A stretch of 53,519 bases of DNA, taken from positions 1 to 53,519 of the forward strand of contig JAFGFW010000191.1 in assembly GCA_016930875.1 (NCBI GenBank), read 5' to 3'. Position 1 is the first letter of the stretch; each line of letters begins with the position of its first letter. Under the pieces are notes generated by a model. It ran no database searches, was not told the DNA's origin, and saw only the letters and a program-made list of their open reading frames with translations. The position numbers were made by a program, and so were the translations under genes. Of the stretch, positions 14,139 to 36,263 are shown piece by piece. The stretch is from Deltaproteobacteria bacterium. GTDB lineage: Bacteria; Desulfobacterota; Desulfobacteria; Desulfobacterales; C00003060.

Positions 14139-14555
14139 TTACTCTACGTCCAACTTCTTCTTCAGCTCTATATTTTCCTTTTTTACAAGGGCTAGTTCAA
14201 TGGCCCTGTTGATGGTAAAGAGTATGCTGTCCTTCCTGAAAGGTTTGGTAATGAAGTCAGCAATCCCCTTTTTCATGGCCTCGTCGGCTGTTTCAATTGA
14301 ACCATAGGCCGTGATCATGACCACGGGAATGTCAGGTTTTATCTCTTGGAATTCATCAAAGAGCTCAATCCCGTCCAGGCCCGGCATCTTGAGGTCGGTG
14401 ATTACTAAGTCGTAGTCCTTCTCTGAGAACAGTTTTATCCCTTCGGACGGGTTGTTGGTTGTTTCCACTTCATAGTCGGTATTCTCTTCAATCATCATCC
14501 TCAGGAGCATCAGCATATCTGGTTCATCGTCAATGATTAAGATCCGTTGTGGCAT
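14139..14555 (-). CDS. Single-domain response regulator
   Basis: A 138-residue receiver with D9/D10 of the acidic pocket, phospho-acceptor D54 (TDLKMPGLDG) and K104 in TKPFRK. After the receiver comes only a charged helix (ALVKKENIELKKKL) like the linker of NtrC-type regulators, with no AAA+ or DNA-binding domain; it looks like an NtrC regulator that lost its output part. It is downstream of the Cache kinase at 14737 on the same strand and is its likely partner. How the signal goes further is not visible; phosphotransfer to another regulator, such as the NtrC-type proteins in this window, is possible. Confidence 0.88.
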   Translation of the reverse strand: MPQRILIIDDEPDMLMLLRMMIEENTDYEVETTNNPSEGIKLFSEKDYDLVITDLKMPGLDGIELFDEFQEIKPDIPVVMITAYGSIETADEAMKKGIADFITKPFRKDSILFTINRAIELALVKKENIELKKKLDVE

Positions 14556-14736: not shown

Positions 14737-16953
14737 CTAACCTGTCTTGCCGTTGGCCACGGGCAGCTCCACGGTAAAGGTGGTTCCGGGTTCCTTTCCT
14801 TCCGCTCTCGTCTGGCTCTTGACTTCGATATGGCCTCCGAACTTCTTCACAATACCGTAGCTTACAGAAAGCCCCAGACCTGTTCCCTCTCCAACTCTCT
14901 TGGTGGTGAAAAAGGGCTCAAATATTTTATCCAGATTATCAGGCGGTATCCCATCGCCAGTATCTTCAAATCCTATTTTGACAATGTGATCGGTCAGGTG
15001 TGCTGAGATGGTCAATATTCCGCCACCCTCCATGGCGGCTACCGCATTGTTAATAATATTCAAGAATACCTGTTCCAGTTGCTGGCCATCACCCTTTACT
15101 CTGGGAAGGTTCTCTTCCATTTGGGTTGTGAGGTCTATCTTTTTTGTAAGAAGGGTATTCATGACAACATTAACAACTTTCTGGATATCGTCAAGCACAT
15201 CAGTTTCTGTGGTGGTCTTCTGGGGTATCCTGGCAAAGGCAAGGAGATTCTCAACGATCCTTTTACAGTTATTCCCCTGCCTCTCAATGGTCTTGAGGAT
15301 CTCATGTTCTTTGGAGCCTGCGGGGGTTCTATCCATCAATAGTTCCGTAAAACCAAGGATAATGGCAACCGGGTTGTTTATTTCATGGGCAACGCCTGCT
15401 GAAAGCGACCCCAGAGATGCGAGTTTTTCCGTATGAACGAGCTGTCCTTCCATTATCTTATGTTCTGTGATGTCTCTGGATATGATCAATACTGCGCCTA
15501 TATGACCTCCGTCTGTCAGGACAGGCTTGTATTTTGTGTCAAGGCAATACTGCCTGTTTTCTATGTTTACGCATTCTTCGTGATTAATAGTCTCAGATGT
15601 TGCCAAGACCTTTTCAACCGTCAAGCAGACACTTTCGGGTGTTTCGTATTCGATCACATCCATTACTCTTTTTCCCACAACGTCGTCAACCTGACACCCC
15701 ATCAACTGCAGGCAGTATTGATTGACTGAAAGGATATTACACTGTTCGTCCACAGTATAGATCATGTCATCTGCTGACTCGATAACGGATCGGTACCTTT
15801 CCTCAGAGCGTTGCAGCCTGTTGGCGTAACGCGCCAGGTCTTTTGTCTTTTCTTCGACTTCTTCTTCAAGGGTTTTGAGCCAGGTCCTTTCGTTTGCTAT
15901 AAAGAAGGTAAATATGACAATTACCGCAGCAATTAAAACACCCTGTATCATAAATTGTCTAACATACACGGTGTGTACGGCGTCTTCCACCTCACTAATC
16001 GGCGCTGCCACGGCAACCGACCATATCCTTGTGGCGTTGGCAGCTCCAATTTGCACTGGCGCGTAGGCGATCAGTTTTTTCATGGGGCCCCTCACGCCAC
16101 GGTGCCAACCTGAGATATACCAGGAGGTCCCTTCCTTTCCCCGCAGCATCTTGGTTTTTTGTATGAGGTCGATTTTGCTGAAAGAGATGTGTGGATCTTT
16201 AAATTTTCTCACCTCAAAGGCATTTTGGCCGATAAAATCCCTTTCCAGGTGGTACAGAAAATCCCCGGACTCATTAATGACCCATGCATACCCAGTCTTG
16301 CCTGACCTGATGCGACCCACGAATTTTTCTGCAAGCAAACCAGCGTCCAGGACAAACACCAGCACCCCCGAAAATTGGTAAGTGGGTTTCGGGTGTGCCT
16401 GATCGCTTGAGACGTTATAGACCGGCGTAGCCATAGTCATGACAAGACCAGGCTCAGAGTTCTCAACAACCTCCTTCTTGACATCGCTTATGTAGACCTT
16501 GCCTCTGTTTGCCGGTTCTTTGCACCATTGAAAATAATCCTCGCGGCCATAGGATCCCTTTTCCACAAAGACTGCATTGGCATAATTGACTGAATAGGAG
16601 TTGGTGCCGTGAGCGTTCACAAGCATGACTCGGATTACACCATAGTCCTTAATACTTGAAAGGGAGATTTTCATCCGGTTTGGCCAGGAGACCGCCTCCA
16701 CATACTGAATCGAGGGTGAGAGGCTCAGAGTCATCAGTTCCCGCTTAAGGATTCTAAAATTTACAGTCAATATCTCTGTGGCATTTCTGGCTAATGAAAG
16801 CTGCTGTGCATTGAAGTCCTCATTGATTATCTTTTTCGTTTCGCGGGCTGAAAGCGTCCCCAAAATGAGGGCCCCCCCCAAGAGTACTGCGATGACTCCT
16901 GTGATAAGCCATAAACCCGGTTTTCGGGCAAAGTATTTGAGATATTTCTTCAC
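14737..16953 (-). CDS. Cache-domain membrane histidine kinase with PAS
   Basis: A 738-residue kinase: TM1 (about 13-33), a large periplasmic double-Cache sensor (about 38-330), TM2 (about 333-353), coiled linker, PAS (about 385-500), dimerisation helix with H523 ([13 protein letters not shown]) and an ATPase domain ([22 protein letters not shown]). The long periplasmic domain has the YGREDYFQW and [12 protein letters not shown] segments typical of dCache, a fold that usually binds small ligands such as carboxylates or amino acids. The ligand is unknown. It precedes the lone receiver at 14139 and follows PEP-synthase-like protein 1 on the same strand, with a palindromic repeat on each side. 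Confidence 0.9.
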
Positions 16954-17161: not shown

Positions 17162-19741
17162 CTAATGCGGAATGTTCACAAAAGACTCAATTCCCTTGAT
17201 CATATCTTTGTAATACCACTCTACCATTTTTTCGTTGTGCATTACCATATCCATCTGCCGTGTGTGAACTATGACATGTCCCAATACCTTCAGACGTTCC
17301 TTCAAGAAGGCTTCTTCGTGCCCCTCAATACGCGCAAAGATACTGTCTTCTCTGACCTCCACACGGAAATCAAACTTGCCCAGTATCCTTGAAATAAAGG
17401 CGACCCTGCGGTTTCTCCTGCCGGAATCAGCCCCGCCACCCTTGAAGGCGAAGCTCACGTAATTCTGATTTTCGTTTCCACCCACGTAAGATTCGGTTGT
17501 GGAAAAATGGAAACCCAGGCGTACGCTTAAGTTACAGAAGTCTTTTGAGAGAACAATATAATTTTTGTCCGTCAGATACGATGCCGCGTCAGGGTCTATG
17601 GCCGACCCAGCCACCACGGACAAGAAACCTTTGGTGTCCATCGGGGGAGGCCCTTTCCACGGCACAGCAGTCATTCCTTCCCATATGGCACGCATCGGTT
17701 CGGATACAATGTCTTCGGGCCCTATCCGCTTTCCAAGGCCTTGTTTGAGGCCATCCTCAAGGTCTATGACCAGCCATTCCAGGGGAATATCCTTGCTTAC
17801 CAGCTTTTTTGCCGATTTTTCAGAAAAATATGTATGCTTACCGAAATCGAACATCTCCCTTAACGCCATTTCGTGCGAAAACCGTGTGATATCGTGAAAG
17901 GTTCGACAAGTCTTCGCCTTAAAATCAGGGCCCCTGGGGTCAGTCATGTATAATGGGGTGATTTCCTTTAAGATTGTGCGAAGGCGCCGGTAAATTGGAG
18001 AACTGGAAAATCCACCAGTCTGTTTGCCGGCCTTCAGTAGCTCACCAACCTCACCCTCATAAACCCTGCCATATTGAGCATCGACTGTCACCAGCATGCC
18101 GTCTCTTAGAACTCTTGTAGCATCTTCTGCATTAAGAATGGCAGGCACGCCCAGTTCTCTTGCAACTGTGGCAAGGTGTCCCAAGACAGAACCTGTGTCA
18201 GAAATCACAGCAGTGGCCTTATCCAGGATCAGTGCGAACTCGGGATGTGCCTGTCTTATCACCAGAACGCCTCCTTCGGGGAAATCGCCCATTGCCCTTT
18301 CGTCCCTCACTTGGCGGACGGGCCCTGCTGATACCCCGCGGCAGGCAATCTTACCCTTATCAAGAAGAAGCTCGTGCCCTTCCACATGCCTGGGCTTATC
18401 CAAGAGTTTCTCTTTATGCATGTAGGACATACGAAGAGGCCTTGATTGCAAAACTTGAATAACCCCGTTATGGTCCAAGGCCCATTCCATATCCTGAGGG
18501 GATTCAAAATGCGATTCCAGCACGCGGGCAAGATTGCTCAGTTTTAGTACCTGATCTTCATCCAGGCACGATGTGTCCTGCATATGCTCGGGAACTGCAA
18601 CCTCTTGTGTCCCGCCGTCGGCAGAGGCACGACTCATGACCCTTTGCCTGCCCTCTTTCTTGCGCGAAACCCTGCTGCCCTTTCCGCCTTTGGCCGGGGC
18701 GATGACTTTGAGAGTTTCCGGAGGGACCACCCCCCCTACTGCATAATCTCCCAGTCCCCACACAGCATTGATGAGGACCACGTCCTCATCCGGATTTCTG
18801 GGATCACGTGAATAGGCTATCCCGCTTGACGCGGGATCAATCATCTGTACGACGCCTGCGGCCATGGCCATCTCATTGATGTTAAAGCCCTTGTCCTTAA
18901 AGTAAAAGAGGGCTCTGGGCGTAAACTGGCTCGAAATAACCTTCTTGTAAGCCTCTATGAGACTTTCCCTTGTGACATTCAGCACAGTGGCGTACTGGCC
19001 GGCAAAGCTGGCCATGATGTCTTCGAGGATGGCGCTGCTTCGAACAGATACATGAAGGGATGTCTCTGCTGTTTGCCTCTTCATTTCGTCAAACGCGAGC
19101 AGTATTGCGTCTTGAAGATCGCCGGGGACCTCACTTTTTTGCACTAACCCCTGCATTGCACGGCTGGCATCCTCCAGGGCGGCATAATCCCTGATATCAA
19201 CCGAGCCGCAGTTTTCCTCCAAAAGCGCTTCTATCTGGTTATGTCGTACAAAGCTCTGATAGGAGAATGTGGTGATGACAAAGGCATTAGGCACTTGGAG
19301 ACGAATGTTGTTGGCCACCTCGCCCAGATAGGCCATCTTGCCCCCGCAGGAAGGCGCCATATCCTTATGAACGGATTCAAGGGCTAACACGTAATCGGTT
19401 TTGGGGATGGCGATTGCTGGATGGAGGATCTCCTGAGCTGTCTTGTTGATGCGGTCACTGGCACGCACCAGATCCTTGTACTTATTACCAGATACCTGGT
19501 TCAGACTGTCGATAATCCTGTTAATGCCCTTTGAAACGGACCGATACGAAGATTCCACATAGGCTGCATCGAAGACATAGGCCCCGCTTGCCTTTTCCTG
19601 CATATCCGCCATGGTGGCAAGCACCGCATTGTTGGCGTCAAGGAGTTCCCGAAAGGCCTTATACTTGTGGGTAAAGAGGTCCTTCTCTTCCTCTCCCCGT
19701 AGGGCTTTTTCTCGTCTTTTCTTGCTGAAAAAATTGAACAT
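17162..19741 (-). CDS. PEP-synthase-like phospho-histidine protein 1 without PEP barrel
   Basis: An 859-residue protein related to PEP synthase/pyruvate phosphate dikinase. Regions: a family-specific helical N-terminal domain (about 20-110); ATP-grasp domain (about 120-435) with CGGKMAYLGE, SVRSSAILEDIMASFAGQY, SSGIAYSRDP, NAVWGLGDYAVGGVVPPE and QDMEWALD...LQSRPLR; mobile phospho-histidine domain (about 455-570) with H522 in GSVLGHLATVARELGVPAI; then a novel C-terminal domain (580-859) in place of the PEP/pyruvate TIM barrel, ending in an FRVEV...VHTRQMD region. It should use ATP to phosphorylate H522 and pass phosphate to an unknown acceptor. A basic insert (about 350-375) is unique to this copy. 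It follows the CBS protein at 19767 by 25 bases and leads into a Cache kinase. Paralogs are at 26210 and 33359. Confidence 0.85.
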   Translation of the reverse strand: MFNFFSKKRREKALRGEEEKDLFTHKYKAFRELLDANNAVLATMADMQEKASGAYVFDAAYVESSYRSVSKGINRIIDSLNQVSGNKYKDLVRASDRINKTAQEILHPAIAIPKTDYVLALESVHKDMAPSCGGKMAYLGEVANNIRLQVPNAFVITTFSYQSFVRHNQIEALLEENCGSVDIRDYAALEDASRAMQGLVQKSEVPGDLQDAILLAFDEMKRQTAETSLHVSVRSSAILEDIMASFAGQYATVLNVTRESLIEAYKKVISSQFTPRALFYFKDKGFNINEMAMAAGVVQMIDPASSGIAYSRDPRNPDEDVVLINAVWGLGDYAVGGVVPPETLKVIAPAKGGKGSRVSRKKEGRQRVMSRASADGGTQEVAVPEHMQDTSCLDEDQVLKLSNLARVLESHFESPQDMEWALDHNGVIQVLQSRPLRMSYMHKEKLLDKPRHVEGHELLLDKGKIACRGVSAGPVRQVRDERAMGDFPEGGVLVIRQAHPEFALILDKATAVISDTGSVLGHLATVARELGVPAILNAEDATRVLRDGMLVTVDAQYGRVYEGEVGELLKAGKQTGGFSSSPIYRRLRTILKEITPLYMTDPRGPDFKAKTCRTFHDITRFSHEMALREMFDFGKHTYFSEKSAKKLVSKDIPLEWLVIDLEDGLKQGLGKRIGPEDIVSEPMRAIWEGMTAVPWKGPPPMDTKGFLSVVAGSAIDPDAASYLTDKNYIVLSKDFCNLSVRLGFHFSTTESYVGGNENQNYVSFAFKGGGADSGRRNRRVAFISRILGKFDFRVEVREDSIFARIEGHEEAFLKERLKVLGHVIVHTRQMDMVMHNEKMVEWYYKDMIKGIESFVNIPH

Positions 19742-19766: not shown

Positions 19767-20243
19767 TTATAGCTTTAACATGGCGTTTGTTATTTCGTGA
19801 AACAGATCTTCCATCCGCACAACCCCGATAAACCTTTCCCCTTCCGTGACCGGCAGGAGACAGGTGGCCTCCTCCAGCATCATGTGAGAAGCCATCAAAA
19901 TGCTCTCCTCGGCATCAATCGTGACCGTGGCCTCGGACATGAACTCCTTAATTGGCAGGGCAAGCCGCTTTTCGCTTACGGTGTTGAGCAGGTCGTCCCA
20001 TGATATTGGGATACTCTCCTGGTTGCCTTGACCAAACTTCGGTTCAATTGCCCTTAAGATGTCATTTTGCAAAAGCATGCCCACAAGCTTGTATGCCTCG
20101 TTAAAGACCATGATTGTATGGTGTCCTGTTTCATAGGAGACATTGAGCTGTACAATCGCCTCCCTAAGGGTTCCCCAGTAAGGCATGTGAGGATAGTCTG
20201 TCAGCGGAATGACTAGATCCCTTACTCCCTTTTCGCGTACCAT
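19767..20243 (-). CDS. CBS-domain-pair protein 1
   Basis: A 158-residue protein of two CBS motifs: the first around YWGTLREAIVQLN...HHTIMVFNEAYKLVGMLLQNDIL, the second around MSEATVTIDAEESILMASHMMLEE...LLPVTEGERFIGVVRMEDLFHEI. CBS pairs bind AMP, ATP or related nucleotides and usually regulate a partner. It starts inside the end of the LCIB-like gene (22-base overlap) and precedes PEP-synthase-like protein 1, so all are one operon. It is a paralog of the CBS protein at 23023, which opens the operon; both share the unusual start R-V-x-D-x-x-x-x-x-T-x-Y-P-H-x-x-Y-W. Confidence 0.85.
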   Translation of the reverse strand: MVREKGVRDLVIPLTDYPHMPYWGTLREAIVQLNVSYETGHHTIMVFNEAYKLVGMLLQNDILRAIEPKFGQGNQESIPISWDDLLNTVSEKRLALPIKEFMSEATVTIDAEESILMASHMMLEEATCLLPVTEGERFIGVVRMEDLFHEITNAMLKL

Positions 20244-21379
20244 GTCTCCTCCTGGTCATTACATTCCAGTATCTGGTCTATGGAGAGTCTCCCCTTTGGG
20301 GGGGTAAAAGAATCCAGGAGACTGTTGATCTCAGACGGCCCCATAACAATCCCCTCTCGCTCGCCAGCCGGTTTGAAGAAGGCGTATTGGGGATAATAAA
20401 CATTGGAATAATGATAAGTCCGCTCTTCACAATACAGATCGACAGTCAAACCGGACACGCCGAAGACCCCCTTGGACAGCACATCCGGAATTGCATGGAT
20501 GGCATCCACGAATCGGTTGAACTCTATCCATGTGTTCACATTTGCAATAGTGGCCATAGGAGGATAGTCTAGACTGGACACGATTTGATGCATAAGCGGA
20601 TGTAGTCTCCGGGTAATGTCATCCGGAAAGGGAGCGGACGAAGTCCAAAGGAATCTGAAATAGTCACCTGCAAGTTGGTCTCTTATTGGGGAGGGGTCGT
20701 GCGTTATGGCCTGCTTTTTCGCCTCAAGGGCATGTTGCAGATCCGGATGAACCTCAAAAATAACAGAGCGTGGGCTTTCCGCGGTCATGACACCTTCAGA
20801 TTCCGGATTGCCTCTTATCAAAGAGGGATCCAGGCATAGCTTGGCAGGGTGGGGCTCATCAGAGCTGTGAATCCCAAGGAGTCGGTTTGGAATTTCAAGG
20901 AAAACTCTGCCCTCTTCTTTGAAGAGCTTAATGCTATTCTTGGCATATTCGTACTCTTTCAAGTAAGGCTCCATGACGCCGGCCAATTTGCCGCAGCATG
21001 CGCTAAAGCCCCCCTCTTTTTCGCGATAGATCTTTCCAAATGTTTCGGCCTGGTGGTCGTACCCGGTGTGGCTTCCCATCACATATACCAAGTTCTCGGC
21101 GTGATGTGAGGCCGGGACAATAGCCTTGGTGTCCAGTTCGGCTCCCACCTTTCCCCCAACAAAAGGAGATGTCCCGAAAGTGGCGATGAAATAGAGGAGC
21201 TTAAGGCCCTGGCTCTCATCCGGACACTCAACCTTTACAGGCATGGTTGTGGCCATATCAAACTTACAATAGCCTGCCACCAGTTCTTTGAGCTTTCCAA
21301 AAAATGTGGCCAGGTTGTATTGACGGGCCATCACGGCACGGTTGTCAGGGATTATGCGGGGACGTTTCAAATAGTCCAT
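20222..21379 (-). CDS. LCIB-like (type II beta) carbonic anhydrase homolog, putative
   Basis: A 385-residue soluble protein. Residues 50-140 carry a pattern that I match, by eye, to the LCIB/LCIC beta-carbonic-anhydrase family: C52-P-D54-E (the CxDE of beta-CAs), GTSPFVGGKVG, S-H92-H93 after a short gap, VMGSHTGYDHQAETFGKIYR (compare FPHI...GEVG.I.R) and a C128-C129-G-K-L segment. This gives the Cys-His-Cys zinc set plus the Asp expected for type II beta-CAs. The Arg partner of the usual Asp-Arg dyad is not evident. Residues 160-385 are unlike anything I recognise. If real, it would interconvert CO2 and bicarbonate beside an anion transporter and CBS sensors. No membrane segment or signal peptide. 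Confidence 0.55.
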   Translation of the reverse strand: MDYLKRPRIIPDNRAVMARQYNLATFFGKLKELVAGYCKFDMATTMPVKVECPDESQGLKLLYFIATFGTSPFVGGKVGAELDTKAIVPASHHAENLVYVMGSHTGYDHQAETFGKIYREKEGGFSACCGKLAGVMEPYLKEYEYAKNSIKLFKEEGRVFLEIPNRLLGIHSSDEPHPAKLCLDPSLIRGNPESEGVMTAESPRSVIFEVHPDLQHALEAKKQAITHDPSPIRDQLAGDYFRFLWTSSAPFPDDITRRLHPLMHQIVSSLDYPPMATIANVNTWIEFNRFVDAIHAIPDVLSKGVFGVSGLTVDLYCEERTYHYSNVYYPQYAFFKPAGEREGIVMGPSEINSLLDSFTPPKGRLSIDQILECNDQEETWYAKRE

Positions 21380-21477: not shown

Positions 21478-23007
21478 TCAAGGTGCCGGCAGAGTAATCG
21501 GCATTCCCAGGACTGGCCAGATCACCCACACGCACAGGGCCACTACTGCCATCAGGAGGACGCTTGCCGGAATGCCGTAGGTAAAGAACTCGCCCGTGGT
21601 AAATTGCTTTGAATCATACGCAATGGCATTCGGGGCCGCGCCTACCAGCAAGAGAAAAGGCATGCCGGCCGTGACCAGTGATGCAAAGAGGATCACTTCG
21701 CCGGATACGCCCAGATAAGGGGCAATCACCAGGGCCACAGGCAGCGAGATAGCAATGGCAGCCACGTTCATGATAAAGTTTGTCATGATCATGACAAAAA
21801 AGGCGATGCTCATGATAAATACAAACCCGGGAGATTCCTGGAACATTCCAAGCCAGTTAACGGCCATCCATTTCGCTGCGCCGGTTTCCCATAGGCAAAA
21901 ACCGATGCTCATGGCCCCGGCAAAGAGCAAGATAATATTCCAGGGGATCTCTTCCAGGTCCTTAATATCGAGAATTTTAGTAATAAAGAACAGGATGGTT
22001 GAAATGAGAACAATCGCCGTCTTGTCAATCGCTTTCAGGGCCGGGACAAAGGACCGCAGGCCCATGACCAAGATGACGCCAATGACAATGGAGGCTGCCA
22101 GGATTTCTTTGCCGCTGATTTTGCCCAGTTGCTCATTGAGCTTCTTGGCCTTTTCCCTGAGACCGGGAATCGTCTTTTTTTCCGGTTTCAAAAAGACCAT
22201 GAAAAATGCCCACAGGACAAAGACCATGATCCATCCGGGAAGAAACATATAATAGGTAAGTTGAAAAAAGCTGATATCCTTTCCCATGATGTCGTTATAA
22301 AAGCCGATTGCCACGGCGCCGCGCGCAGCGCCCAACAGGGTTACGATGCTCCCTGCGCCGGCCACATAGGCCATGCCTATGAAAAGGCCCTTCCCGAATT
22401 TGGTTTTTTTGTCTCCTTCTCCGTACAGGGCATAGATGGCCAAAAGGAGTGGATATATGGTAGCGGCCACTGCCGTGTGGGCCATGACATGGGTCATGGC
22501 AGCCGTGACCACAAAGCAGCCGAGGTAGATCATGCTGGTTTTTTCTCCCACAATAGCCAGCATCTTATACGCCAGGCGCTTGGTGAGGCCTGTCTTGGTA
22601 AAGACCATGCCGATGACTATTGAGCCAAAGATAAACATCACGGAAGGATCCATGAAATCCTTAAAGGCTGCCTTGGCAGGCCGGATGAGAAAGAGGGCTT
22701 GCATCACCCCTATTGTGATACTGGTTACCCCGATCGGCACAACCTCAAAGACCCACCAGGTGCCGGCCAGCAAAAAAACGGCCAGCGCCCCCTTGGCCTC
22801 TTTGGACAGAGCAAAGTGCTTTCCCATGGGGTCCACCGCGTCCGGCCACGGCGGGGCAGAATAGACTATGAAAAAGAGGACGATCCCTATTGCTATGAAA
22901 AGCAGGCGGTTCCAGTCCAGTCTGGGCTTTTCAGGAGAAAGAACGATTTCATCAGGCATCTCCGGGAGACCTGCCCCGGAGGCAATCGGCTTACTGTTTT
23001 CAACCAT
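21478..23007 (-). CDS. DASS/SLC13-family anion:Na+ symporter
   Basis: A 509-residue polytopic membrane protein of the divalent anion:Na+ symporter (SLC13/DASS/ArsB-like) family. Seen are the first helix pair ending in VYSAPPWPD, the VFLLAGTWWVFEVVPIGVTS segment, the amphipathic stretch MTHVMAHTAVAATIYPLLLAI, a second-half ITNFIMNVAAIAISLPVAL helix (repeat of the N-T/S motif) and the late GAAPNAIAYDSKQFTTGEFF motif near the C-terminus, all typical. Substrates in the family include succinate, malate, citrate and sulfate; sequence alone does not decide. It follows the CBS protein at 23023 by 15 bases and is presumably under its control and that of the sigma54 promoters. Confidence 0.88.
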   Translation of the reverse strand: MVENSKPIASGAGLPEMPDEIVLSPEKPRLDWNRLLFIAIGIVLFFIVYSAPPWPDAVDPMGKHFALSKEAKGALAVFLLAGTWWVFEVVPIGVTSITIGVMQALFLIRPAKAAFKDFMDPSVMFIFGSIVIGMVFTKTGLTKRLAYKMLAIVGEKTSMIYLGCFVVTAAMTHVMAHTAVAATIYPLLLAIYALYGEGDKKTKFGKGLFIGMAYVAGAGSIVTLLGAARGAVAIGFYNDIMGKDISFFQLTYYMFLPGWIMVFVLWAFFMVFLKPEKKTIPGLREKAKKLNEQLGKISGKEILAASIVIGVILVMGLRSFVPALKAIDKTAIVLISTILFFITKILDIKDLEEIPWNIILLFAGAMSIGFCLWETGAAKWMAVNWLGMFQESPGFVFIMSIAFFVMIMTNFIMNVAAIAISLPVALVIAPYLGVSGEVILFASLVTAGMPFLLLVGAAPNAIAYDSKQFTTGEFFTYGIPASVLLMAVVALCVWVIWPVLGMPITLPAP

Positions 23008-23022
23008 TATGCGTTTCCTCCT

Positions 23023-23547
23023 TCACTCTAATACGGTTTTAGTCAGCTCATTAAAAACGTCGCTCATGCGCAAAACACCTGCTATGTTCTCCCCATCCAT
23101 CACAGGGAGCAGGTTCACGTCCGCCTGAAGCATGACAAAGGCCGCTCTTTCAAGAGAATCATTTGCCTCAACCGTTGCCCGGATCGGTACCATAACCTCA
23201 CTGACCGGCTTTTCCGCCTCCTCTTTGCACCTGCTAGAAAAGGTGCCTTCCACAAGGGCAGAAAGGCTTGCATAGTCTTTGTCCGTGAGTCCCTCAAAAG
23301 GTGACGTTTCATCCCTTCTAAGAAACTTCGGCTCAATGCCCGTGAGAAGGCTTTTCAGTGTCAAAACACCCTGGAGTTGATACTTTTCATCAAATACAAG
23401 AACCATCCGGTGCTCTCCCAGACCCGCTGTCTCATCATAAGAACTGTGAATCATGGCGATGGCATCCCGCACGCTCATCCAGTAAGCAATGTGGGGATAC
23501 TCGGTTATCTCAACCATGAAATCCTTCACCCTTTTAGCACTCTGCAT
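23023..23547 (-). CDS. CBS-domain-pair protein 2, first gene of minus-strand operon
   Basis: A 174-residue protein with two CBS motifs: YWMSVRDAIAMIHSSYDE...HRMVLVFDEKYQLQGVLTLKSLL and VMVPIRATVEANDSLERAAFVMLQ...LLPVMDGENIAGVLRMSDVFNEL. It is the first gene after two tandem sigma54 promoters and leads the operon CBS, transporter, LCIB-like protein, CBS, PEP-synthase-like protein. Its paralog at 19767 shares the same layout. By family it should sense adenine nucleotides; its closeness to the transporter suggests gating or expression control. An AGGAGGGG ribosome site is present upstream of the ATG. Confidence 0.86.
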   Translation of the reverse strand: MQSAKRVKDFMVEITEYPHIAYWMSVRDAIAMIHSSYDETAGLGEHRMVLVFDEKYQLQGVLTLKSLLTGIEPKFLRRDETSPFEGLTDKDYASLSALVEGTFSSRCKEEAEKPVSEVMVPIRATVEANDSLERAAFVMLQADVNLLPVMDGENIAGVLRMSDVFNELTKTVLE

Positions 23548-23707: not shown

Positions 23708-23862
23708 TAATACTTTTCCCTTTGTGACAGCTTGAAGAAAGCGACAGCGCAGAGATGATCCCGGCAAGTTTTTGCCAAAACAAACAGAAGATTGCCGCTA
23801 TAGAGGTGAATCTGTTTGACACTCAGGTGGTATTGTGGTTAAGAACACACAAGGAATCAATA

Positions 23863-24816
23863 ATGCAGAGATTTATCATCGGTTCTGATGTGATGCGCTT
23901 CATTATCAACTTGGTGCATCAGGTTGCCAAATACGATGTAAATGTGCTACTAACAGGCGAAAGCGGCACAGGCAAGGAGATGCTTGCCCGGATGATCCAC
24001 CTTGAGAGCTCAAGGGCTGAAAACCCTTTTGTTCCGGTAAACTGCGGCATCCTCTCAGGCCTTCTGTTCGAAGACAAGCTTTTTGGGCACGAAAAGGGAT
24101 CCTTCACAGGGGCCATTTGCAGGCAGAAGGGCTGCTTTGAGACGGCTGACAAAGGCACTCTGTTTCTCGATGAGGTCTCCGGAGTGCCTTTGGAAAATCA
24201 GGTGGATTTTTTGCGGGTCCTGGAAGATCTTCGGTTTTCACGCATTGGGGGAAATGAGCAAATTGAGGCGGATGTTCGGATTATCTCGGCAACGAACAAA
24301 GACCTCAGAGACCTGGTCAAAAAGGGGGAGTTTAGAGAGGACCTGTTCTATCGTCTTCATGTCGTGCCAATCTACATACCTCCTTTAAGGGAGAGAAAGA
24401 GCGCTATCGCCGAGATGGTGAATTACTTTCTGGATCAATTAAGCGTCAGGTACGAAAAACCGAGACCTGCTGTATCGTCAGAGGCCATGGATGTTTTTTG
24501 CCGCTATGATTGGCCCGGAAATGTGAGGGAACTGAGAAACCTCTTGGAAAGGGTTTTTATCCTGAACGTCAAGGATACGATCGGTATAGAGCAACTCCCT
24601 TCTGATTTTCTATGGCACTTTAAAGAACCTCCGGCCATGGATCTGGGAGAAGTCAAAAGAAAGGCGGAAACCAAGGCCATCCTGGACGTCTTTGATCGTG
24701 TGCAGGGCGACAGGGAACGGGCCGCCCGGATCCTTAATATCAGCCCGCGAACCTTGAGATACAAACTGAATCGATATGGGATCAAGGTGGATTCAAGACG
24801 CAACGTTTTGTCATGA
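23863..24816 (+). CDS. Receiver-less sigma54 activator (PspF-like layout)
   Basis: A 317-residue enhancer-binding protein made of an AAA+ sigma54-interaction domain and a Fis-type helix-turn-helix, without an N-terminal sensory domain. Walker A GESGTGKE is at 32-39, the sigma54-contact loop is GSFTGA (79-84, Ser for Ala), Walker B is LFLDEV, and YDWPGNVRELRNL and RERAARILNISPRTLRYKL close the protein. AAGGA ahead of ATG 23863 supports this start; ATG 23755 would add 36 residues without recognisable domain. Lacking a receiver, it is probably always competent and controlled by a binding partner, as PspF is by PspA. It is divergent from the tandem sigma54 promoters and overlaps or abuts permease 2. 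Confidence 0.88.
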   Translation: MQRFIIGSDVMRFIINLVHQVAKYDVNVLLTGESGTGKEMLARMIHLESSRAENPFVPVNCGILSGLLFEDKLFGHEKGSFTGAICRQKGCFETADKGTLFLDEVSGVPLENQVDFLRVLEDLRFSRIGGNEQIEADVRIISATNKDLRDLVKKGEFREDLFYRLHVVPIYIPPLRERKSAIAEMVNYFLDQLSVRYEKPRPAVSSEAMDVFCRYDWPGNVRELRNLLERVFILNVKDTIGIEQLPSDFLWHFKEPPAMDLGEVKRKAETKAILDVFDRVQGDRERAARILNISPRTLRYKLNRYGIKVDSRRNVLS

Positions 24817-24851
24817 CCGTACTTTGTGATGGAGTCATCAAGAATGGAAAA

Positions 24852-26024
24852 ATGAAAGTCCATCACATCATCTTGATCTTGTTATTTCTGGGGCTGACCC
24901 TCTGCCTTGACATCAACAACTGCCAGGCCGTCTCCAAGGCAGGGGGGAGTTCTGCCGTCCAGGCTTCGGCTGCTGAATCCACTGTGGCCTCCGGGGAGCA
25001 TGAGGTCCCTTGGTACATTATAAGACTTCCTACCCTCAACCGGGACTTCAACGTCTGGGTCCTTATCGCCATCGGATTTTCCGTAGGGGTCCTGGGCCGG
25101 TTTTTTGGCACAGGGGGCATAATTTTTGTGACTCCGGCCTTGAATGTATTCGGCTTTCCAATAGCCACGGCAGTAGGGACCGACCTTGCCCAGATGACCG
25201 TTAAGGCCTGCATAAGACTTGCTAAAGGTGGTTGGAGGCAGCAAGTGGAACTCAAACTTGTTGTGCTGATGATCATCGGTATGGTCGCCGGTGTTGAGCT
25301 GGGGGCCCGGACGGTGATATGGCTTGCTGCGTTAAGTAAGGCCGGAACGGTTATCCGGATGGTCTATCTTGCCGGGCTTCTCGGGCTGGGCCTGTTCATG
25401 TTCATAGAATACAGAAAGATTACAGGCGTTCAACACGATGAGACATTTTCGGGCCAGAGTTGGCTTCCGCCACTTGATGAGGGCGGGACCGCCGTATCGA
25501 GGAGGCTCCAGGCCATGAAGCTTCCACCTGTAGTTACTTTGTCGGCATCCGGCGTTCGGGTCTCTTTCTGGATCATTATCGGCATTGCCTTTATTACCGG
25601 ATGGCTCTTTGGCCTTTTGGGGGTGATGGGCGCCTTCTTGCCTTTGCCGGCCATGATTTATCTTATGGGCCTGGCGGCGGCCATTGCCCTGGGGACCGAT
25701 CTTTTTTGCACAGCTTTCTCAGGCGGTTACGGAGCCCTCACCTACGCCTTGAAAGGACACGTTGAAATCATTGCCGTCTTATGGATTCTCGTTGGCACCC
25801 TTGTCGGCACGCAGACTTGCAGCCGCACTGCCCATTATGTAAAGGGCCCGGGCATTCGTCTTTTGTATGCTGTTACCGCGATCACGGTTGGGTTGTCTGT
25901 TCTTCTCAAACAGTTTGGTATGATTGTCCCGGCCCGTGTCGTGTTGCTGGTGGCTATTCTTGCCCCTTGCGGTATTCTTATGGCGAAGATGCTTAAGGGG
26001 TATTTGCGGGAAAGGCAAGAGTAG
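24852..26024 (+). CDS. TauE/SafE-family anion permease 2
   Basis: A 390-residue membrane permease of the TauE/SafE type with a signal-like N-terminal helix (MKVHHIILILLFLGLTLCL) and a periplasmic stretch before the core. Half 1 has GVLGRFFGTGGIIFVTPALN and AVGTDLAQM; half 2 has GWLFGLLGVMGAFLPLPAMIYLMG and ALGTDLFCT. The glycine-rich repeats GxGGG are degenerate (GTGGI and GVMGA) compared with permease 1, which may reflect a different substrate. I prefer ATG 24852 because the hydrophobic signal begins there; ATG 24813 overlaps the activator stop and would be translationally coupled. It precedes PEP-synthase-like protein 2, with a palindromic repeat between. Confidence 0.84.
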   Translation: MKVHHIILILLFLGLTLCLDINNCQAVSKAGGSSAVQASAAESTVASGEHEVPWYIIRLPTLNRDFNVWVLIAIGFSVGVLGRFFGTGGIIFVTPALNVFGFPIATAVGTDLAQMTVKACIRLAKGGWRQQVELKLVVLMIIGMVAGVELGARTVIWLAALSKAGTVIRMVYLAGLLGLGLFMFIEYRKITGVQHDETFSGQSWLPPLDEGGTAVSRRLQAMKLPPVVTLSASGVRVSFWIIIGIAFITGWLFGLLGVMGAFLPLPAMIYLMGLAAAIALGTDLFCTAFSGGYGALTYALKGHVEIIAVLWILVGTLVGTQTCSRTAHYVKGPGIRLLYAVTAITVGLSVLLKQFGMIVPARVVLLVAILAPCGILMAKMLKGYLRERQE

Positions 26025-26072
26025 GGGCTAGCACCCTTAGGCGGCTAAGCTGGAACAGAAAAAAATAAAATT

Positions 26073-26148
26073 ACCACGAAAGCACGAGATGACGAAAGCA
26101 CGAAGAAAGAATTTCCGTAGAGATTTCGTGTTTTCGTGCTTTCGTGGT
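26073..26148. repeat. Palindromic repeat (ACCACGAAAGCA type), copy 2
   Basis: ACCACGAAAGCACGA (26073-26087) is a perfect inverted match of TCGTGCTTTCGTGGT (26134-26148). It is the same family as 17001-17109. It lies in the 185-base gap between permease 2 and PEP-synthase-like protein 2 and might shape their relative expression. Confidence 0.7.
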
Positions 26149-26209
26149 TAGTTTTGTTTCCCCTTTTTGTTTCCGGTGTTTCCCAGTTAAGGTTTTATGA
26201 GGTAGCGTC

Positions 26210-28813
26210 GTGTTTGGATTGACACGATTAGTCAAGAAAGTTGTAAAAGGAGCGGGTAAGCGAGAGCCCCAGGAAGCGCCGGAAGAACTGCGCTCCATGT
26301 TTAAGGCGAGATATTGGAACTTTAAGGCCCTCTTAAACGCCAATAATACGGCGCTCCATATCATGTCCGACATGGAACACGCCCTTCGCGGGAGCCACAG
26401 CTTTGGCATGGCCTTTGTTCGCGCTAACTGCACCGCTGTTTCAGTCAATGTGTATAAGATAATTCAGAACATGAACGAGATCTCCTCCAACCGCTATGAG
26501 GCCCTTTATGAGGCTTTTGCGGAAATCGAGAACGGCGTCAAACAGATCCTGGAAGAGCGCAAGGAATTCGGACAGGGCGAACTGATCCTGCCTCTTGAGG
26601 CCGTAAACAAGGATATGGCCGATCATGTCGGCGGAAAGATGGCGAATTTGGGGGAAATCCTGAATCGGGTCAGCCTTTCGGTGCCGGAAGGCTTTGTTAT
26701 CACGGCCTCTGCGTATGATCTGTTCCTCAAACACAGTAACCTCCAAGAAGAAATCAACCGGCGGATTCAGCCTCTGGATCTTGAAGATATGGAGATGCTG
26801 CACAAGGCAAGCGCTGATATTCAGCAGTTTATTATTCAATCGCAATTGCCGGATGAGCTTGAAGAGGCGATCGTTTCCGCATACAAGGACCTTGAAGAGA
26901 AAACAGAAAAAGGCGTAAATGTCTCCTTGCGCAGCAGCGCCATGGGAGAGGATACGGAAAAGGCCTCTTTCGCGGGTCAGTATCGCTCCGAGCTTAATGT
27001 GAACCAGGAGTTTTTGGCCTACACATTTAAGGAGATTCTGGCAAGCAAATACACCCCCCAGGCCCTTACGTACCGTTTGAGCATGGGCTTTCGAGATGAA
27101 GACATAGCCATGTGTGTGGGCTGCATGGCAATGGTTGGCGCTGTTTCAAGCGGAGTGATGTATTCCCGTGATCCGAGCAATATTCGCAACAACGTGGTTA
27201 TCATCAACGCGGTCTGGGGCCTTGCCAAATCGGTCGTGGACGGCACCGCATCCCCGGACCTTCTTGTGGTTTCAAAGGGACAACCGGGTGAGATCCTAAA
27301 AAAGGAGATTCACAGGAAAGAGCAAAAATTCGTGTGTTTTGCCGAAGAAGGGGTTTGCCGTATGGAGTTGACAGGTGATGAGAGGGACGATCCTTCTATC
27401 ACTGATGATCAGGCAGTATCCCTCGCCGGGTTGGCTTGTCGTCTTGAAGACCACTATGGATGCCCTCAGGACATTGAGTGGGCCGTTGAGAAGGACGGTG
27501 TCATCAGAATACTGCAAAGCCGACCGTTGAGACAGATGGATACAGAAACAAAAGGTGTGGAAGAAGGGCCGGGTTTCAAAATACAGGAGCCCGTTGTCTT
27601 GCAAGGTGGTGTGACGGCCAGCCCGGGGGTTGCCTGCGGGCCTGCCTTTCTGGTGGATACCACTGTGGATCTGCTCCAGTTTCCTGCTGGAGCGGTATTG
27701 GTAGCGCAGCATTCTTTACCCCAATGGGCCACGCTCTTGAACCGGGCAGCAGCAGTGGTAACGGATCGAGGGGGTGTCACGGGACATCTGGCGACTGTTT
27801 CAAGAGAGTTCAGTGTTCCGGCCCTTTTCGACACCCTTGAGGCCACGGGCAAGATTCAACATGGCGATATCATAACGGTTGATGCAGACGGCCGGAAGGT
27901 CTATGAAGGAAGGGTCGAATGCCTGCTTGAAGAGGCCTCGGTTGAAAGAGCGAGCCTGATGAAAGGAAGTCCTGTTTACCATATTCTGGAAAAGGCCCTT
28001 GAGTATGTTGTGCCCCTGAACCTGATTGATCCGGATGGCGATGATTTCAACCCAAAGGGGTGCCGGACTTATCACGACATTACCCGCTTCTGCCACGAAA
28101 AATCCGTAAAGGAGATGTTCAGCTTTGGCAAGGACCACCGTTTTTCAGAGCGAGCCAGTAAGCAACTGGTCTATAAGGTCCCAATGCAGTGGTGGATAAT
28201 CGACCTTGAGGACGGGTTTAAAGAACCGGTTGAGGGTGACAAGGTTAAACTGGAACAGATCGCGTCCATTCCCATGCTGGCCATCTGGGAGGGGACCATC
28301 GCCATACCATGGGAAGGCCCGCCTGCGGTTGACACAAAGGGGTTGTTCTCAGTCATGTTCTCTTCGACCATGGACCCGAGCCTGACTGCCGGGGGTAAAT
28401 CTCGTTATAGTGAAAAGAACTATTTCATGATTTCCAAACATTTTTGCAACTTGACCTCTCGTTTGGGATATCACTTCTCAACCGTTGAGTCATTTGTGGG
28501 TGAGAGGCCCAAAGAGAACTATGTGAGCTTCAATTTTAAGGGGGGGGCCGCTGACTTCAACAGGAGGCTGAGGAGGATCAAATTTATCGGAGCAATCCTG
28601 GAGAAATTTGATTTCCGGGTCGAGATCAGTGAAGACGCTATCACTGCGAGGATAGAGGAATATGATCAGGACTTCATGATAGAGCGGCTCAAGGTGCTCG
28701 GATATTTGACCATCCATACCAGACAGCTCGATATGATCATGGCCAACGATGCCAGGGTCATTCACTATATGGACAAGATGATAAAGGATATCAATTCCTT
28801 TGTTTCGGTGTAA
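26210..28813 (+). CDS. PEP-synthase-like phospho-histidine protein 2 without PEP barrel
   Basis: An 867-residue paralog of the protein at 17162. Same order: N-terminal helical domain (30-115), ATP-grasp domain (about 130-440) with HVGGKMANLGE, SLRSSAMGEDTEKASFAGQY, SSGVMYSRDP, NAVWGLAKSVVDGTASPD and QDIEWAVE...LQSRPLR, phospho-histidine domain (about 455-570) with H526 in RGGVTGHLATVSREFSVPAL, and the novel C-terminal domain (580-867) ending GFDFR-like EKFDFRVEIS and IHTRQLDMI. The start is GTG at 26210 with GAGGT upstream. It lies 15 bases before a Cache kinase and heads a string of two kinase/receiver pairs. Role proposed: ATP-driven histidine phosphorylation feeding or sensing the signalling genes; the acceptor is unknown. 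Confidence 0.85.
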   Translation: MFGLTRLVKKVVKGAGKREPQEAPEELRSMFKARYWNFKALLNANNTALHIMSDMEHALRGSHSFGMAFVRANCTAVSVNVYKIIQNMNEISSNRYEALYEAFAEIENGVKQILEERKEFGQGELILPLEAVNKDMADHVGGKMANLGEILNRVSLSVPEGFVITASAYDLFLKHSNLQEEINRRIQPLDLEDMEMLHKASADIQQFIIQSQLPDELEEAIVSAYKDLEEKTEKGVNVSLRSSAMGEDTEKASFAGQYRSELNVNQEFLAYTFKEILASKYTPQALTYRLSMGFRDEDIAMCVGCMAMVGAVSSGVMYSRDPSNIRNNVVIINAVWGLAKSVVDGTASPDLLVVSKGQPGEILKKEIHRKEQKFVCFAEEGVCRMELTGDERDDPSITDDQAVSLAGLACRLEDHYGCPQDIEWAVEKDGVIRILQSRPLRQMDTETKGVEEGPGFKIQEPVVLQGGVTASPGVACGPAFLVDTTVDLLQFPAGAVLVAQHSLPQWATLLNRAAAVVTDRGGVTGHLATVSREFSVPALFDTLEATGKIQHGDIITVDADGRKVYEGRVECLLEEASVERASLMKGSPVYHILEKALEYVVPLNLIDPDGDDFNPKGCRTYHDITRFCHEKSVKEMFSFGKDHRFSERASKQLVYKVPMQWWIIDLEDGFKEPVEGDKVKLEQIASIPMLAIWEGTIAIPWEGPPAVDTKGLFSVMFSSTMDPSLTAGGKSRYSEKNYFMISKHFCNLTSRLGYHFSTVESFVGERPKENYVSFNFKGGAADFNRRLRRIKFIGAILEKFDFRVEISEDAITARIEEYDQDFMIERLKVLGYLTIHTRQLDMIMANDARVIHYMDKMIKDINSFVSV

Positions 28814-33358: not shown

Positions 33359-35965
33359 TCACTTCATCTCAAACTGGTAATCCCCTTCCAGGAAAGCCTT
33401 TGCCACAGCCTCCACAGTCGCTTCGCTGGTCATCAGCATATCCATCTGCCGGGTGAATTGAAGCAACCGCCCGACCATGTCCAGCTTTTCTTCAATCACG
33501 GGAAGTTCGTATTTTTGAAGACGGGCGTCTATCCTGTCTCCCGTGACTTTCACCGAAAAGTCGAGGCCTTCGAGCATCATGGCGATGGCGCGGGCCCGGC
33601 GATTCCTCCGGATATCATCAGCAGCGCCACCCTTAAAGGAAAAGGTAATATAGTTCTTGTGGATAGTCCGGCCGCAATATGAATCGAGCACACCGTAATG
33701 GTAGCCCACACGGGAACTGAAATTGAGATACTTGTCCGAAATGATTGCGTAGCTGCGGTCACCAAACCTTTGTCCGGCGCTCGGGGGGGGAGACAACATC
33801 TGTTCGGTCATGACTGAAAAAAAACCCTTAAAATCAACAGGGCGCGGTTGGCGTAAACGAAAATCTTCGTGCGTCATCCCCTTTAGGAGTGCCTTGAAAG
33901 GAAGAGATGCGATATTGTCCAAAGTCACCTTCTTAGCGTGTTCGGTCACCCCGGCAAGGCCGCCTTCCAGATCGATGACATAGAGGTCAAGAGGAATATT
34001 GGCATCTAGCTTTACAGCGCCCCCTCCTCTGACTGAAACAATGTCGCTGATTTGAAACATCTCGGTGTAACAGAACTCGTGTACCAGACGCATGATATCG
34101 TGAAGCGACTGGCACGATCGCGGGGCAAAATAGGAAGCCTCGGGATCCAAGAGATGCAAAGGTACGATCAGGTCGGCTGCCCGTCTCAAGGTTTGATACA
34201 CAGGCGTATCCTTCATGTGAGGCTCCCTGGTAGTCTGTATGGCAAGCAATTCCGGAACCTTGCCCTGATAGACTCTCCCTGAATAGGCATCCACAGTGAT
34301 TTCCGCACCAGGGGGGATAGAGGTGGTCGCCACCTTGAGATCCAGGATGGAGGGTACGGCAAATTCCCTGGCGAGGGAAGCCATGTGTCCGGTCACACTC
34401 CCTGAGTCGGTGACAATAGCCCGGGTCTTCTGCATAATAATCGCGAATTTCGGTGTCGAATGCTCAGCCACAAGGACCGCACCATCCGGAAAGGCCATAA
34501 GGTCTTCTTCTGAACGCACATGAAAGGCCGGACCGAATCCCACACCCGGGAAGGCCACAGCCCCGCCTTCTACCAGCAAAGGATACCCGGTCAACCTGGG
34601 GATGGTCTCTTTAAGACCGTTTTTCTCGGGACTTTCCACACGGAGTGGCCGGGTTTGCAACACAATGAGACGTCCATTGCTGTCAAGGGCCCATTCGATA
34701 TCCTGTGGGCACTGGTAGTGCTCTTCCAGTTTCACGGCATAACCTGCAAGGGTGCGCACCTGCTCCGGCGATAGGCACGGCTTATCCTGTTTGTCCGCGG
34801 CCACGCCTATTTCTACGAGACCACCGTCCGGGTTACTGACCAACTGAACCGGTTTGTTGGAGGCTTTTGTCTCAACAATACTCAGCTCGTTATCCTTTGA
34901 CACTGTATAGGTATCCGGGGTGATCACGCCATCCACGGCATAAGGACCCAGTCCCCACACGGCAGTGATCATGACATCATCTTCCAGGATATTGAATGGG
35001 TGCCTGGAATACATCACCCCGCTGGCCACGGATTCCACCATTTGAATGCAGGCCACGCTCATGGCAGTGTCCTCATCCCGAATCCCCTTATTGAGGCGAT
35101 AAGATATGGCCCTGGGGGTATAGAGGCTGGCAACAATGTACTTGTACGTCTGGATAAGTTTGTCGGAAGGCACATTCAATGATGACAGGTATTGGCCGGC
35201 ATAAGACAGCTCGCTGTCCTCTCCGATAGCGCTACTCCTCATCGATACACGTAGATCCCATAATCCCTCCTGTTGGGTCGCCTCTACCATCTGACCATAG
35301 GCCGACAGAATGGCCTGCTCCAGTTCAGCGGGGACCCGGGCCATGATTATCAACCTCTGGATTTCCTCACTCATACTGTTTACTGTTTCCGGCCTGTCCG
35401 GATCCATCTCCATTTTTTTCCTATTGATCTCATCGACAAGGTCGTTATAGGCAAGGAAGGAATCAAAGGCGTGGGTCGTGATGGCGAATCCTTCGGGTAT
35501 GGGAAGTCTCACGCGATTGTACACCTCGCCCAGGTTTGCGTTCTTGCCCCCTACCCAATCCACCATCTCCCTGGTCACCCCGGAATAGGGCAAAACGGAT
35601 TCAGTCGCGGGGATTTCCTTCTTTCTGACCAACTCCTCTTTTATCTTTTCATTGAGCTGTTCCAGGATGTCATATAGTGAAACATACTTGTTGTTTGAAA
35701 GATTATTCAGGCATTTGACCATACGAAAGGTGTGAAATACAGCGCGGGTCGATTTGGCACGCACATAGGACATACCAAAAACCTCCCTGCCCTGCAGCTT
35801 TTCCTCCATGTCTGTGATAATGTTTAAAACTTCAGTATTAGATGCCAACAGCTCCTTAAACCAGGAATACTTTACTCTAAAGAGGCGGGATATGTCTTCT
35901 TTTGAGGGGACGGGCTTCCGAGATTTCCGTCTAAATATGTTGAATTTTTTTAACACGTTCATCAT
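33359..35965 (-). CDS. PEP-synthase-like phospho-histidine protein 3 without PEP barrel
   Basis: An 868-residue paralog of 17162 and 26210, taking the ATG at 35965; the frame is open 40 codons further upstream but that part is unlike the family. Regions: N-terminal helical domain (25-115), ATP-grasp (about 125-440) with WVGGKNANLGE, SMRSSAIGEDSELSYAGQY, ASGVMYSRHP (His replaces the Asp of the other two), TAVWGLGPYAVDGVITPD and QDIEWALD...LQTRPLR, phospho-histidine domain with H527 in SGSVTGHMASLAREFAVPSI, and the novel C-terminal domain. It stands alone on the minus strand, divergent from the FtsH-kinase operon with a 300-base control region between. Confidence 0.85.
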   Translation of the reverse strand: MMNVLKKFNIFRRKSRKPVPSKEDISRLFRVKYSWFKELLASNTEVLNIITDMEEKLQGREVFGMSYVRAKSTRAVFHTFRMVKCLNNLSNNKYVSLYDILEQLNEKIKEELVRKKEIPATESVLPYSGVTREMVDWVGGKNANLGEVYNRVRLPIPEGFAITTHAFDSFLAYNDLVDEINRKKMEMDPDRPETVNSMSEEIQRLIIMARVPAELEQAILSAYGQMVEATQQEGLWDLRVSMRSSAIGEDSELSYAGQYLSSLNVPSDKLIQTYKYIVASLYTPRAISYRLNKGIRDEDTAMSVACIQMVESVASGVMYSRHPFNILEDDVMITAVWGLGPYAVDGVITPDTYTVSKDNELSIVETKASNKPVQLVSNPDGGLVEIGVAADKQDKPCLSPEQVRTLAGYAVKLEEHYQCPQDIEWALDSNGRLIVLQTRPLRVESPEKNGLKETIPRLTGYPLLVEGGAVAFPGVGFGPAFHVRSEEDLMAFPDGAVLVAEHSTPKFAIIMQKTRAIVTDSGSVTGHMASLAREFAVPSILDLKVATTSIPPGAEITVDAYSGRVYQGKVPELLAIQTTREPHMKDTPVYQTLRRAADLIVPLHLLDPEASYFAPRSCQSLHDIMRLVHEFCYTEMFQISDIVSVRGGGAVKLDANIPLDLYVIDLEGGLAGVTEHAKKVTLDNIASLPFKALLKGMTHEDFRLRQPRPVDFKGFFSVMTEQMLSPPPSAGQRFGDRSYAIISDKYLNFSSRVGYHYGVLDSYCGRTIHKNYITFSFKGGAADDIRRNRRARAIAMMLEGLDFSVKVTGDRIDARLQKYELPVIEEKLDMVGRLLQFTRQMDMLMTSEATVEAVAKAFLEGDYQFEMK

Positions 35966-36263
35966 GGTTCTGCCTGCCCTTAAGGATGTACGCGTTTGTT
36001 CATGGCAAAAAGAACTGCATGAGTTGACTGGATAGAGAGAGATAGCAAAAACGGCTCGACAATAAACTTTATTTATTTTAAACATACAATGTAAGTTGTG
36101 TCAAAAGACGATTAAGGAGTGTTTAGTAATCGTGTTCGATCCCGCTCCTACAGTTTTGGATATTTTGGCATTTCATATTTGGATTTGTTCCGGATTTGCG
36201 GCTCGCGCCTTGAAAACAGTACGTGCTTCGTATTTCCGGTTTATCCGGGTTAGGTATTTTTAA
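35966..36263. other. Divergent intergenic control region
   Basis: About 300 AT-rich bases between PEP-synthase-like protein 3 (minus) and the FtsH-like gene (plus). I looked for sigma54 sites and found none with the correct GG-N10-GC spacing. No clear -35/-10 pair stands out either. The region must hold both promoters, but I cannot place them. Confidence 0.35.

Follow-up and report, generated by a model that had tools for sequence, protein, structure and literature searches.

P0001, a putative LCIB-type carbonic anhydrase and optional accessory of a probable sulfate-symport operon in a Desulfobacterales bacterium

Introduction

The LCIB proteins known from algae have a disputed enzymatic role, and non-catalytic LCIB and LCIC have reportedly been proposed to serve as a barrier or scaffold. 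The hydrolases of carbonyl sulfide (COS) and carbon disulfide (CS2) are relatives of the beta-carbonic anhydrases (beta-CAs) and have the same metal site. In the LCIB/LCIC proteins (PF18599; CrLCIB 5k5w, CrLCIC 5b5x and PtLCIB4 5b5y), a C-x-D-E motif, a catalytic His, a zinc His, an Arg and a CG motif follow one another in this order. Three structurally characterised LCIB homologues are summarised as having shown no activity, and His162 and Arg194 become disordered in the inactive LCIB/LCIC (PMC5876011). A beta-CA-like site built from C-x-D, His and Cys is also present in DabA (DUF2309) of the CO2-hydrating DAB/DAC complex, where it is coupled to an ion-translocating membrane protein, the Proton_antipo_M partner of DabA.

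The second body of work that bears on the locus described here concerns sulfate import. The DASS proteins of sulfate reducers are considered to transport sulfate (PMC5840216), and for Desulfobacteraceae a 30.5-kb cluster has been described in which DASS sulfate transporters, made constitutively, occur alongside two-component systems and CBS proteins (PMC11887813). The DASS clusters of sulfate reducers combine DASS genes with genes for CBS proteins, Cache histidine kinases and response regulators, and the main text of these two papers mentions no carbonic anhydrase among them (PMC5840216, PMC11887813).

Here we analyse P0001, a gene product encoded among the same kinds of neighbours on a contig of 53,519 nucleotides from a Desulfobacterales bacterium (JAFGFW010000191.1; the whole stretch is referred to as the window). 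The original prediction, made from the letters of the sequence, had called P0001 an LCIB-like beta-carbonic anhydrase in a bicarbonate or CO2 setting.

Results

The P0001 gene and its operon

The genes of the operon, in order of transcription and all on the same strand, are as follows.

23023..23547, minus strand: CBS-pair protein, upstream of the symporter (domain match)
21478..23007, minus strand: 509-aa sodium:anion symporter of the DASS family, probably for sulfate (Pfam/NCBIfam, alignment to VcINDY, distribution)
20222..21379, minus strand: P0001 gene, LCIB-like protein of 385 aa (ORF, profile links, purifying selection)
19767..20243, minus strand: CBS-pair protein, downstream, with its start codon inside the end of P0001 and its own GGAGG (domain match, 22-base overlap)
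17162..19741, minus strand: PPDK_N plus PEP-utilizer swivelling-domain protein with an uncharacterised C-terminus, next in the operon (domain match)
14737..16953, minus strand: dCache-PAS histidine kinase, closing the conserved gene string (domain match)
14139-14555, minus strand: response-regulator-like ORF (by eye from the translation)

We found that the open reading frame proposed at 20222-21379 is real: 385 codons and a stop fill the interval exactly, on the minus strand, which the original prediction had left unstated. A GGAGG ribosome-binding site precedes the ATG, and the last codons overlap the start of the downstream CBS-pair gene by 22 bases. Against five relatives, dN/dS of the gene is 0.10-0.18, and P0001 is therefore a real gene under purifying selection. 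One close homologue, at L005:10001-11155 (the same as L044), is broken by a stop codon or frameshift and has no DASS gene within 6.5 kb; it is perhaps a decaying gene or an assembly error.

With its DASS symporter, CBS proteins and two-component genes, the operon fits the pattern of the DASS sulfate-uptake clusters. Beyond the operon, at 23755-28813, are a divergent sigma-54 activator gene and genes for a TauE-like permease and another PPDK_N protein. The window encodes three PPDK_N plus PEP-utilizer proteins (17162-19741, 26210-28813 and 33359-36085), each with some 280-300 residues at the C-terminus that lie outside any Pfam model. A Proton_antipo_M/N protein of 498 aa is encoded at the very end of the contig (369-1865), about 20 kb from P0001.

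Relationship of P0001 to the LCIB family

P0001 on its own had no match in Pfam, NCBIfam or the PDB sequences, and none to the canonical beta-CA model PF00484 (Pro_CA). Close relatives, at 66-96% identity, were found in Desulfobacterales metagenome-assembled genomes, and homologues at 25-30% identity are spread widely across its phylum: with P0001 alone as the query 14 of 395 genomes were reached, and many more by profile search. The bridging homologues align over most of the length of P0001 with E-values of 1e-24 to 1e-28.

We built a family profile from 38 homologous sequences, with identities down to about 25%. When 177,635 PDB sequences were searched with this profile (hmmsearch), the top eight matches were the eight LCIB-family chains (E 1.9e-7 to 7e-4, the best being 5b5y at 1.9e-7), and nothing beyond them fell below E 0.5. 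In the other direction, 16 of the 38 members matched Pfam LCIB_C_CA (PF18599) at E up to 1 and almost nothing else; two of them, L045 (4.3e-7, 29.9 bits) and L040 (5.4e-6, 26.3 bits), exceed the curated 25-bit cut-off of that model, and L023 matched at 1.1e-3. Compared with canonical LCIB by hhalign, the family reached 97% and P0001's own clade 93%, whereas hmmsearch with a profile of that clade gave no relevant match in Pfam or the PDB, LCIB included; the link to LCIB thus rests on the bridging sequences. Two further PF18599 matches at E about 0.006, in genomes L095 and L096, were set aside: by eye these look like TsaD/Kae1-type proteins, so E-values of this size against PF18599 are to be taken as chance here.

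The family profile also retrieved three short, plain LCIB_C_CA members from the same class (L051, L053 and L055; PF18599 E 1e-42 to 1e-46). These proteins have the same active-site residues, and they differ from the P0001 family in having no insertion, in scoring over 140 bits to PF18599 and in occupying a separate long branch of the tree. A quick tree resolved the family into four well-separated clades, the long branches of which call for care. Scans of viral contigs found no further family sequences, and a plasmid search also found nothing.

Judging from these profile comparisons, P0001 and its relatives are a divergent, previously unlabelled prokaryotic subfamily of the LCIB-type beta-carbonic-anhydrase superfamily. 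The original assignment to LCIB is upheld at the level of superfamily membership with a Cys-His-Cys site, and it is reached via intermediate homologues: a profile search connects the 38-member family to LCIB, P0001's own clade is connected by hhalign only, and P0001 alone is not connected at all.

The predicted active site

The residues that matter for a zinc site are listed below.

21224..21226, minus strand: C52, predicted zinc ligand, opening C-x-D-E (38/38; aligned with the Cys of CSDE/CRDE in LCIB structures)
21101..21103, minus strand: H93, which corresponds to the catalytic His162 of CrLCIB (His88 in PtLCIB4) and is not a zinc ligand (38/38; H-to-R spacing of 32 in 5k5w, equal to that of His162 and Arg194)
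21068..21070, minus strand: H104, predicted zinc ligand in G-S-H-x-G (38/38; aligned with the His of SHVG/FPHI in LCIB structures)
21023..21025, minus strand: R119, equivalent of Arg194 of CrLCIB (38/38; alignment to LCIB structures)
20993..20995, minus strand: C129, predicted third protein zinc ligand in the CCG motif (38/38)

All of the motifs named in the original prediction are present in P0001: C52-P-D54-E55, S91-H92-H93, G102-S-H104-T-G-Y-D, G115-K-I-Y-R119 and C128-C129. C52, D54, E55, H93, H104, G106, G115, R119 and C129 are invariant in all 38 homologues, while H92 and C128 are not. The motifs are more than chance, as the ribosome-binding sites, the dN/dS values and the invariance of most of them in the 38 sequences show. 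The Cys-His-Cys and C-x-D pattern also proved sound, with C52, D54, H104 and C129 both invariant and aligned with the LCIB structures.

The choice of histidine did not. In the alignment, the CrLCIB (5k5w) residues that match H93 and R119 are a His and an Arg with a spacing of 32, exactly that of His162 and Arg194; H93 would accordingly be the catalytic His, which leaves C52, H104 and C129 as the expected zinc ligands. The proposal that H92 or H93 binds zinc is thus wrong, since H93 aligns with the non-zinc catalytic His162 of Chlamydomonas LCIB, and H104 should take that place. The residue x of C-x-D-E is Pro in the P0001 clade, Ser or Ala in the rest of the family, Arg in CrLCIB and Ser in PtLCIB4.

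Core halves and insertion

Three segments of P0001 can be set against the LCIB core.

20954..21304, minus strand: residues 26-142, the N-terminal half of the LCIB core, which contains the zinc His and the two Cys ligands (hmmsearch alignment to 5b5y/5k5w; hhalign 97%)
20645..20959, minus strand: insertion of about 100 residues, 141-245 (family alignment versus canonical LCIB alignment)
20375..20623, minus strand: residues 253-335, probably the second half of the LCIB core (hhalign score 21.1, P 0.0026)

The N-terminal half of the P0001 family aligns significantly with LCIB/LCIC, at only about 25% identity in the profile alignment. The insertion of about 100 residues is conserved across the whole new family and absent from canonical LCIB. 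Beyond it lies a stretch collinear with the second half of LCIB, residues 253-335, made up of a helix, a helix, a strand bearing GVSGLTVDL (a GxxVN/D-type motif) and a strand; the hhalign match is weak (score 21.1, P 0.0026) and was equalled in 1 of 200 column shuffles. An AlphaFold2 model of P0001, made from six related rows, had a mean pLDDT of 42 and was unusable, with blocks of 60-85 within the insertion stretch. The 220-residue C-terminal half, left unassigned in the original prediction, can thus be divided in part: the evidence is suggestive of an insertion of about 100 residues and, after it, the remaining half of the LCIB core, the latter from a collinear match of modest strength. Three further features set P0001 apart from LCIB/LCIC: its length of 385 aa as against a domain of about 220-260 aa, the Pro at x of C-x-D-E in its clade, and its origin in a transport operon of an anaerobic bacterial lineage rather than in algae. 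From DabA it differs in that no sequence link was found here and in that the R of the DabA C-x-D-x-R is not at that place in P0001.

P0001 as an optional part of the DASS operon

Relatives of the window carry either the string CBS-DASS-P0001-CBS-PPDK or exactly CBS-DASS-CBS-PPDK (L177, L179 and L181). The P0001 gene is an optional accessory of the DASS operon, cleanly absent from the operon of close relatives. Of the genomes in the window's genus, 6 have both DASS and P0001 and 11 have neither. A member of a second clade, L141, is only about 26% identical to P0001 and adjoins a DASS protein that is 71% identical to that of the window.

The original prediction had read the setting as one of bicarbonate or CO2 handling. 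In the DASS protein of the window, AHT and MNV replace the two SNT signatures of VcINDY, and it consequently does not look like a dicarboxylate carrier. The MNV motif was present in all 26 DASS loci inspected (identity of at least 76%), many of these from genomes that have no P0001 gene. We found this DASS subtype (E up to 1e-100) in 198 of the 291 class genomes and in 72 of the 395 from the phylum. The P0001 family occurs in far fewer, 24 of the 291 class genomes, a handful of these being canonical LCIB or fragments. Because the subtype is so widely distributed without a P0001 gene, we set aside a dedicated role in bicarbonate transport for the DASS protein. Its distribution, taken together with the published clusters of DASS, CBS and two-component genes, suggests that the operon probably serves sulfate uptake and not bicarbonate uptake, and the host is a probable sulfate-reducing bacterium. 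Most DASS operons of this subtype have no P0001 gene, so sulfate uptake does not require it.

Other contexts of the family

Elsewhere, five family members adjoin a Pro_CA beta-carbonic anhydrase and four adjoin a SulP permease. At L142:5097-9278, genes for a PTS-EIIA/HTH protein, SulP, Pro_CA and an LCIB-like protein form one string on one strand, which looks like a bicarbonate operon with two types of carbonic anhydrase.

Five members lie directly upstream of an operon of the Ehr (energy-converting hydrogenase-related) type (L025, L028, L029, L030 and L022, the last with the first gene alone on the contig). These operons encode antiporter-like subunits, NADHdh, a HyfE-like protein and a 49-kDa-like large subunit without the [NiFe] cysteines, and the function of Ehr is unknown (PMC10284858, PMC4378227). 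Within the P0001 family, a Proton_antipo_M partner of the kind that DabA has is found in this Ehr-linked clade only. In L028 and L029, a gene with PTS-EIIA_2 and HTH_17 domains stands between the LCIB-like gene and the Ehr operon. Two genomes related to that of the window, L182 and L183, have an Ehr operon of this kind immediately next to the CBS-DASS pair, on the opposite strand. The Ehr-linked members are possibly a clue to the function of the Ehr complex and a partner for the orphan Ehr. A search of the window's own genome with the large-subunit protein as the query, run without a positive control, found no Ehr complex.

That genome has CODH/ACS. A search of it with PF00484 (Pro_CA) gave no match, and the same search, as a control, was positive in 9 of 14 genomes.

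Discussion

We consider it somewhat better than an even bet that P0001 is a zinc enzyme of the LCIB type that interconverts CO2 and bicarbonate, as an optional accessory of a DASS sulfate-symport operon. The protein would be cytoplasmic and zinc-dependent, with the metal held by C52, H104 and C129; D54 would orient the zinc-bound water, and H93 and R119 would complete the catalytic pocket. CO2 released in the oxidation of organic matter may be converted to bicarbonate and protons beside the sulfate importer, where the reaction may steady the local pH and supply or remove counter-ions. P0001 may also supply bicarbonate or CO2 to the rest of metabolism: with CODH/ACS present in the genome and Pro_CA absent, a carbonic anhydrase would be of use. 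The members of the family beside Pro_CA and SulP fit a role in inorganic-carbon chemistry. Weighing against this reading are the lack of a relevant match for P0001 alone or for an hmmsearch profile of its clade, the unusable structure model and the Pro at x of C-x-D-E.

The main rival is that the LCIB fold and its zinc have been kept without catalysis, P0001 being a subunit with a regulatory or structural role: it would sense bicarbonate, CO2 or sulfate and, with the CBS proteins, control the symporter. It ranks as such because inactive LCIB homologues are on record (PMC5876011), which also means that active-site residues in place do not guarantee activity. The tight coupling of the gene to that of a CBS regulator, through the 22-base overlap and among sensors, points the same way, and the large inserted segment could serve contacts. 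We nevertheless think it doubtful, as D54, H93 and R119 are conserved in every one of the 38 homologues at identities as low as about 25%, and a zinc scaffold would not need them. That P0001 is instead a hydrolase of the beta-CA fold acting on carbonyl sulfide, carbon disulfide or another sulfur analogue of CO2 would suit the sulfur-metabolism setting of a sulfate-uptake cluster; we hold it to be improbable, given that the nearest kin of P0001 are LCIB proteins rather than COS or CS2 hydrolases and that CO2 or bicarbonate is the simpler substrate for relatives paired with Pro_CA and SulP.

The version given in the original prediction, a bicarbonate-uptake or CO2-concentrating unit with DASS as the bicarbonate symporter and P0001 as its carbonic anhydrase, can draw on the relatives that sit with SulP and Pro_CA and on the AHT and MNV motifs, which are unlike those of a dicarboxylate carrier. 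We find this very improbable, since MNV is shared by every DASS locus inspected, including many from genomes without P0001, since this DASS type is so common in the class, and since clusters of DASS, CBS and two-component genes are described as serving sulfate uptake (PMC11887813). Least credible of all is that the motifs are coincidental and P0001 an unrelated protein. The lack of a direct match to P0001 alone speaks for it, yet P0001 matches the bridging sequences strongly, three methods tie these significantly to LCIB and the same residues do not vary across the family; this explanation is close to refuted.

The preferred reading of P0001 as a CO2/bicarbonate-interconverting enzyme could be widened to the whole family, which might be a carbonic-anhydrase-type module of several ion-coupled systems (DASS, SulP and Ehr) that couples CO2 hydration to ion movement. 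We regard this extension as unlikely. If it were true, the orphan Ehr complex would be a vectorial CO2-hydrating machine, analogous to DAB or to cyanobacterial NDH-1 CO2 uptake, and sulfate import in the window would be coupled to bicarbonate and proton production.

For the organism, the setting of P0001 suggests a link of sulfate uptake to CO2/bicarbonate balance in probable sulfate-reducing bacteria. For the family, a large and unlabelled prokaryotic subfamily with the full set of active-site residues, encoded beside defined anion transporters, would offer simple test proteins for CO2 hydration by the LCIB fold and for the purpose that it serves.
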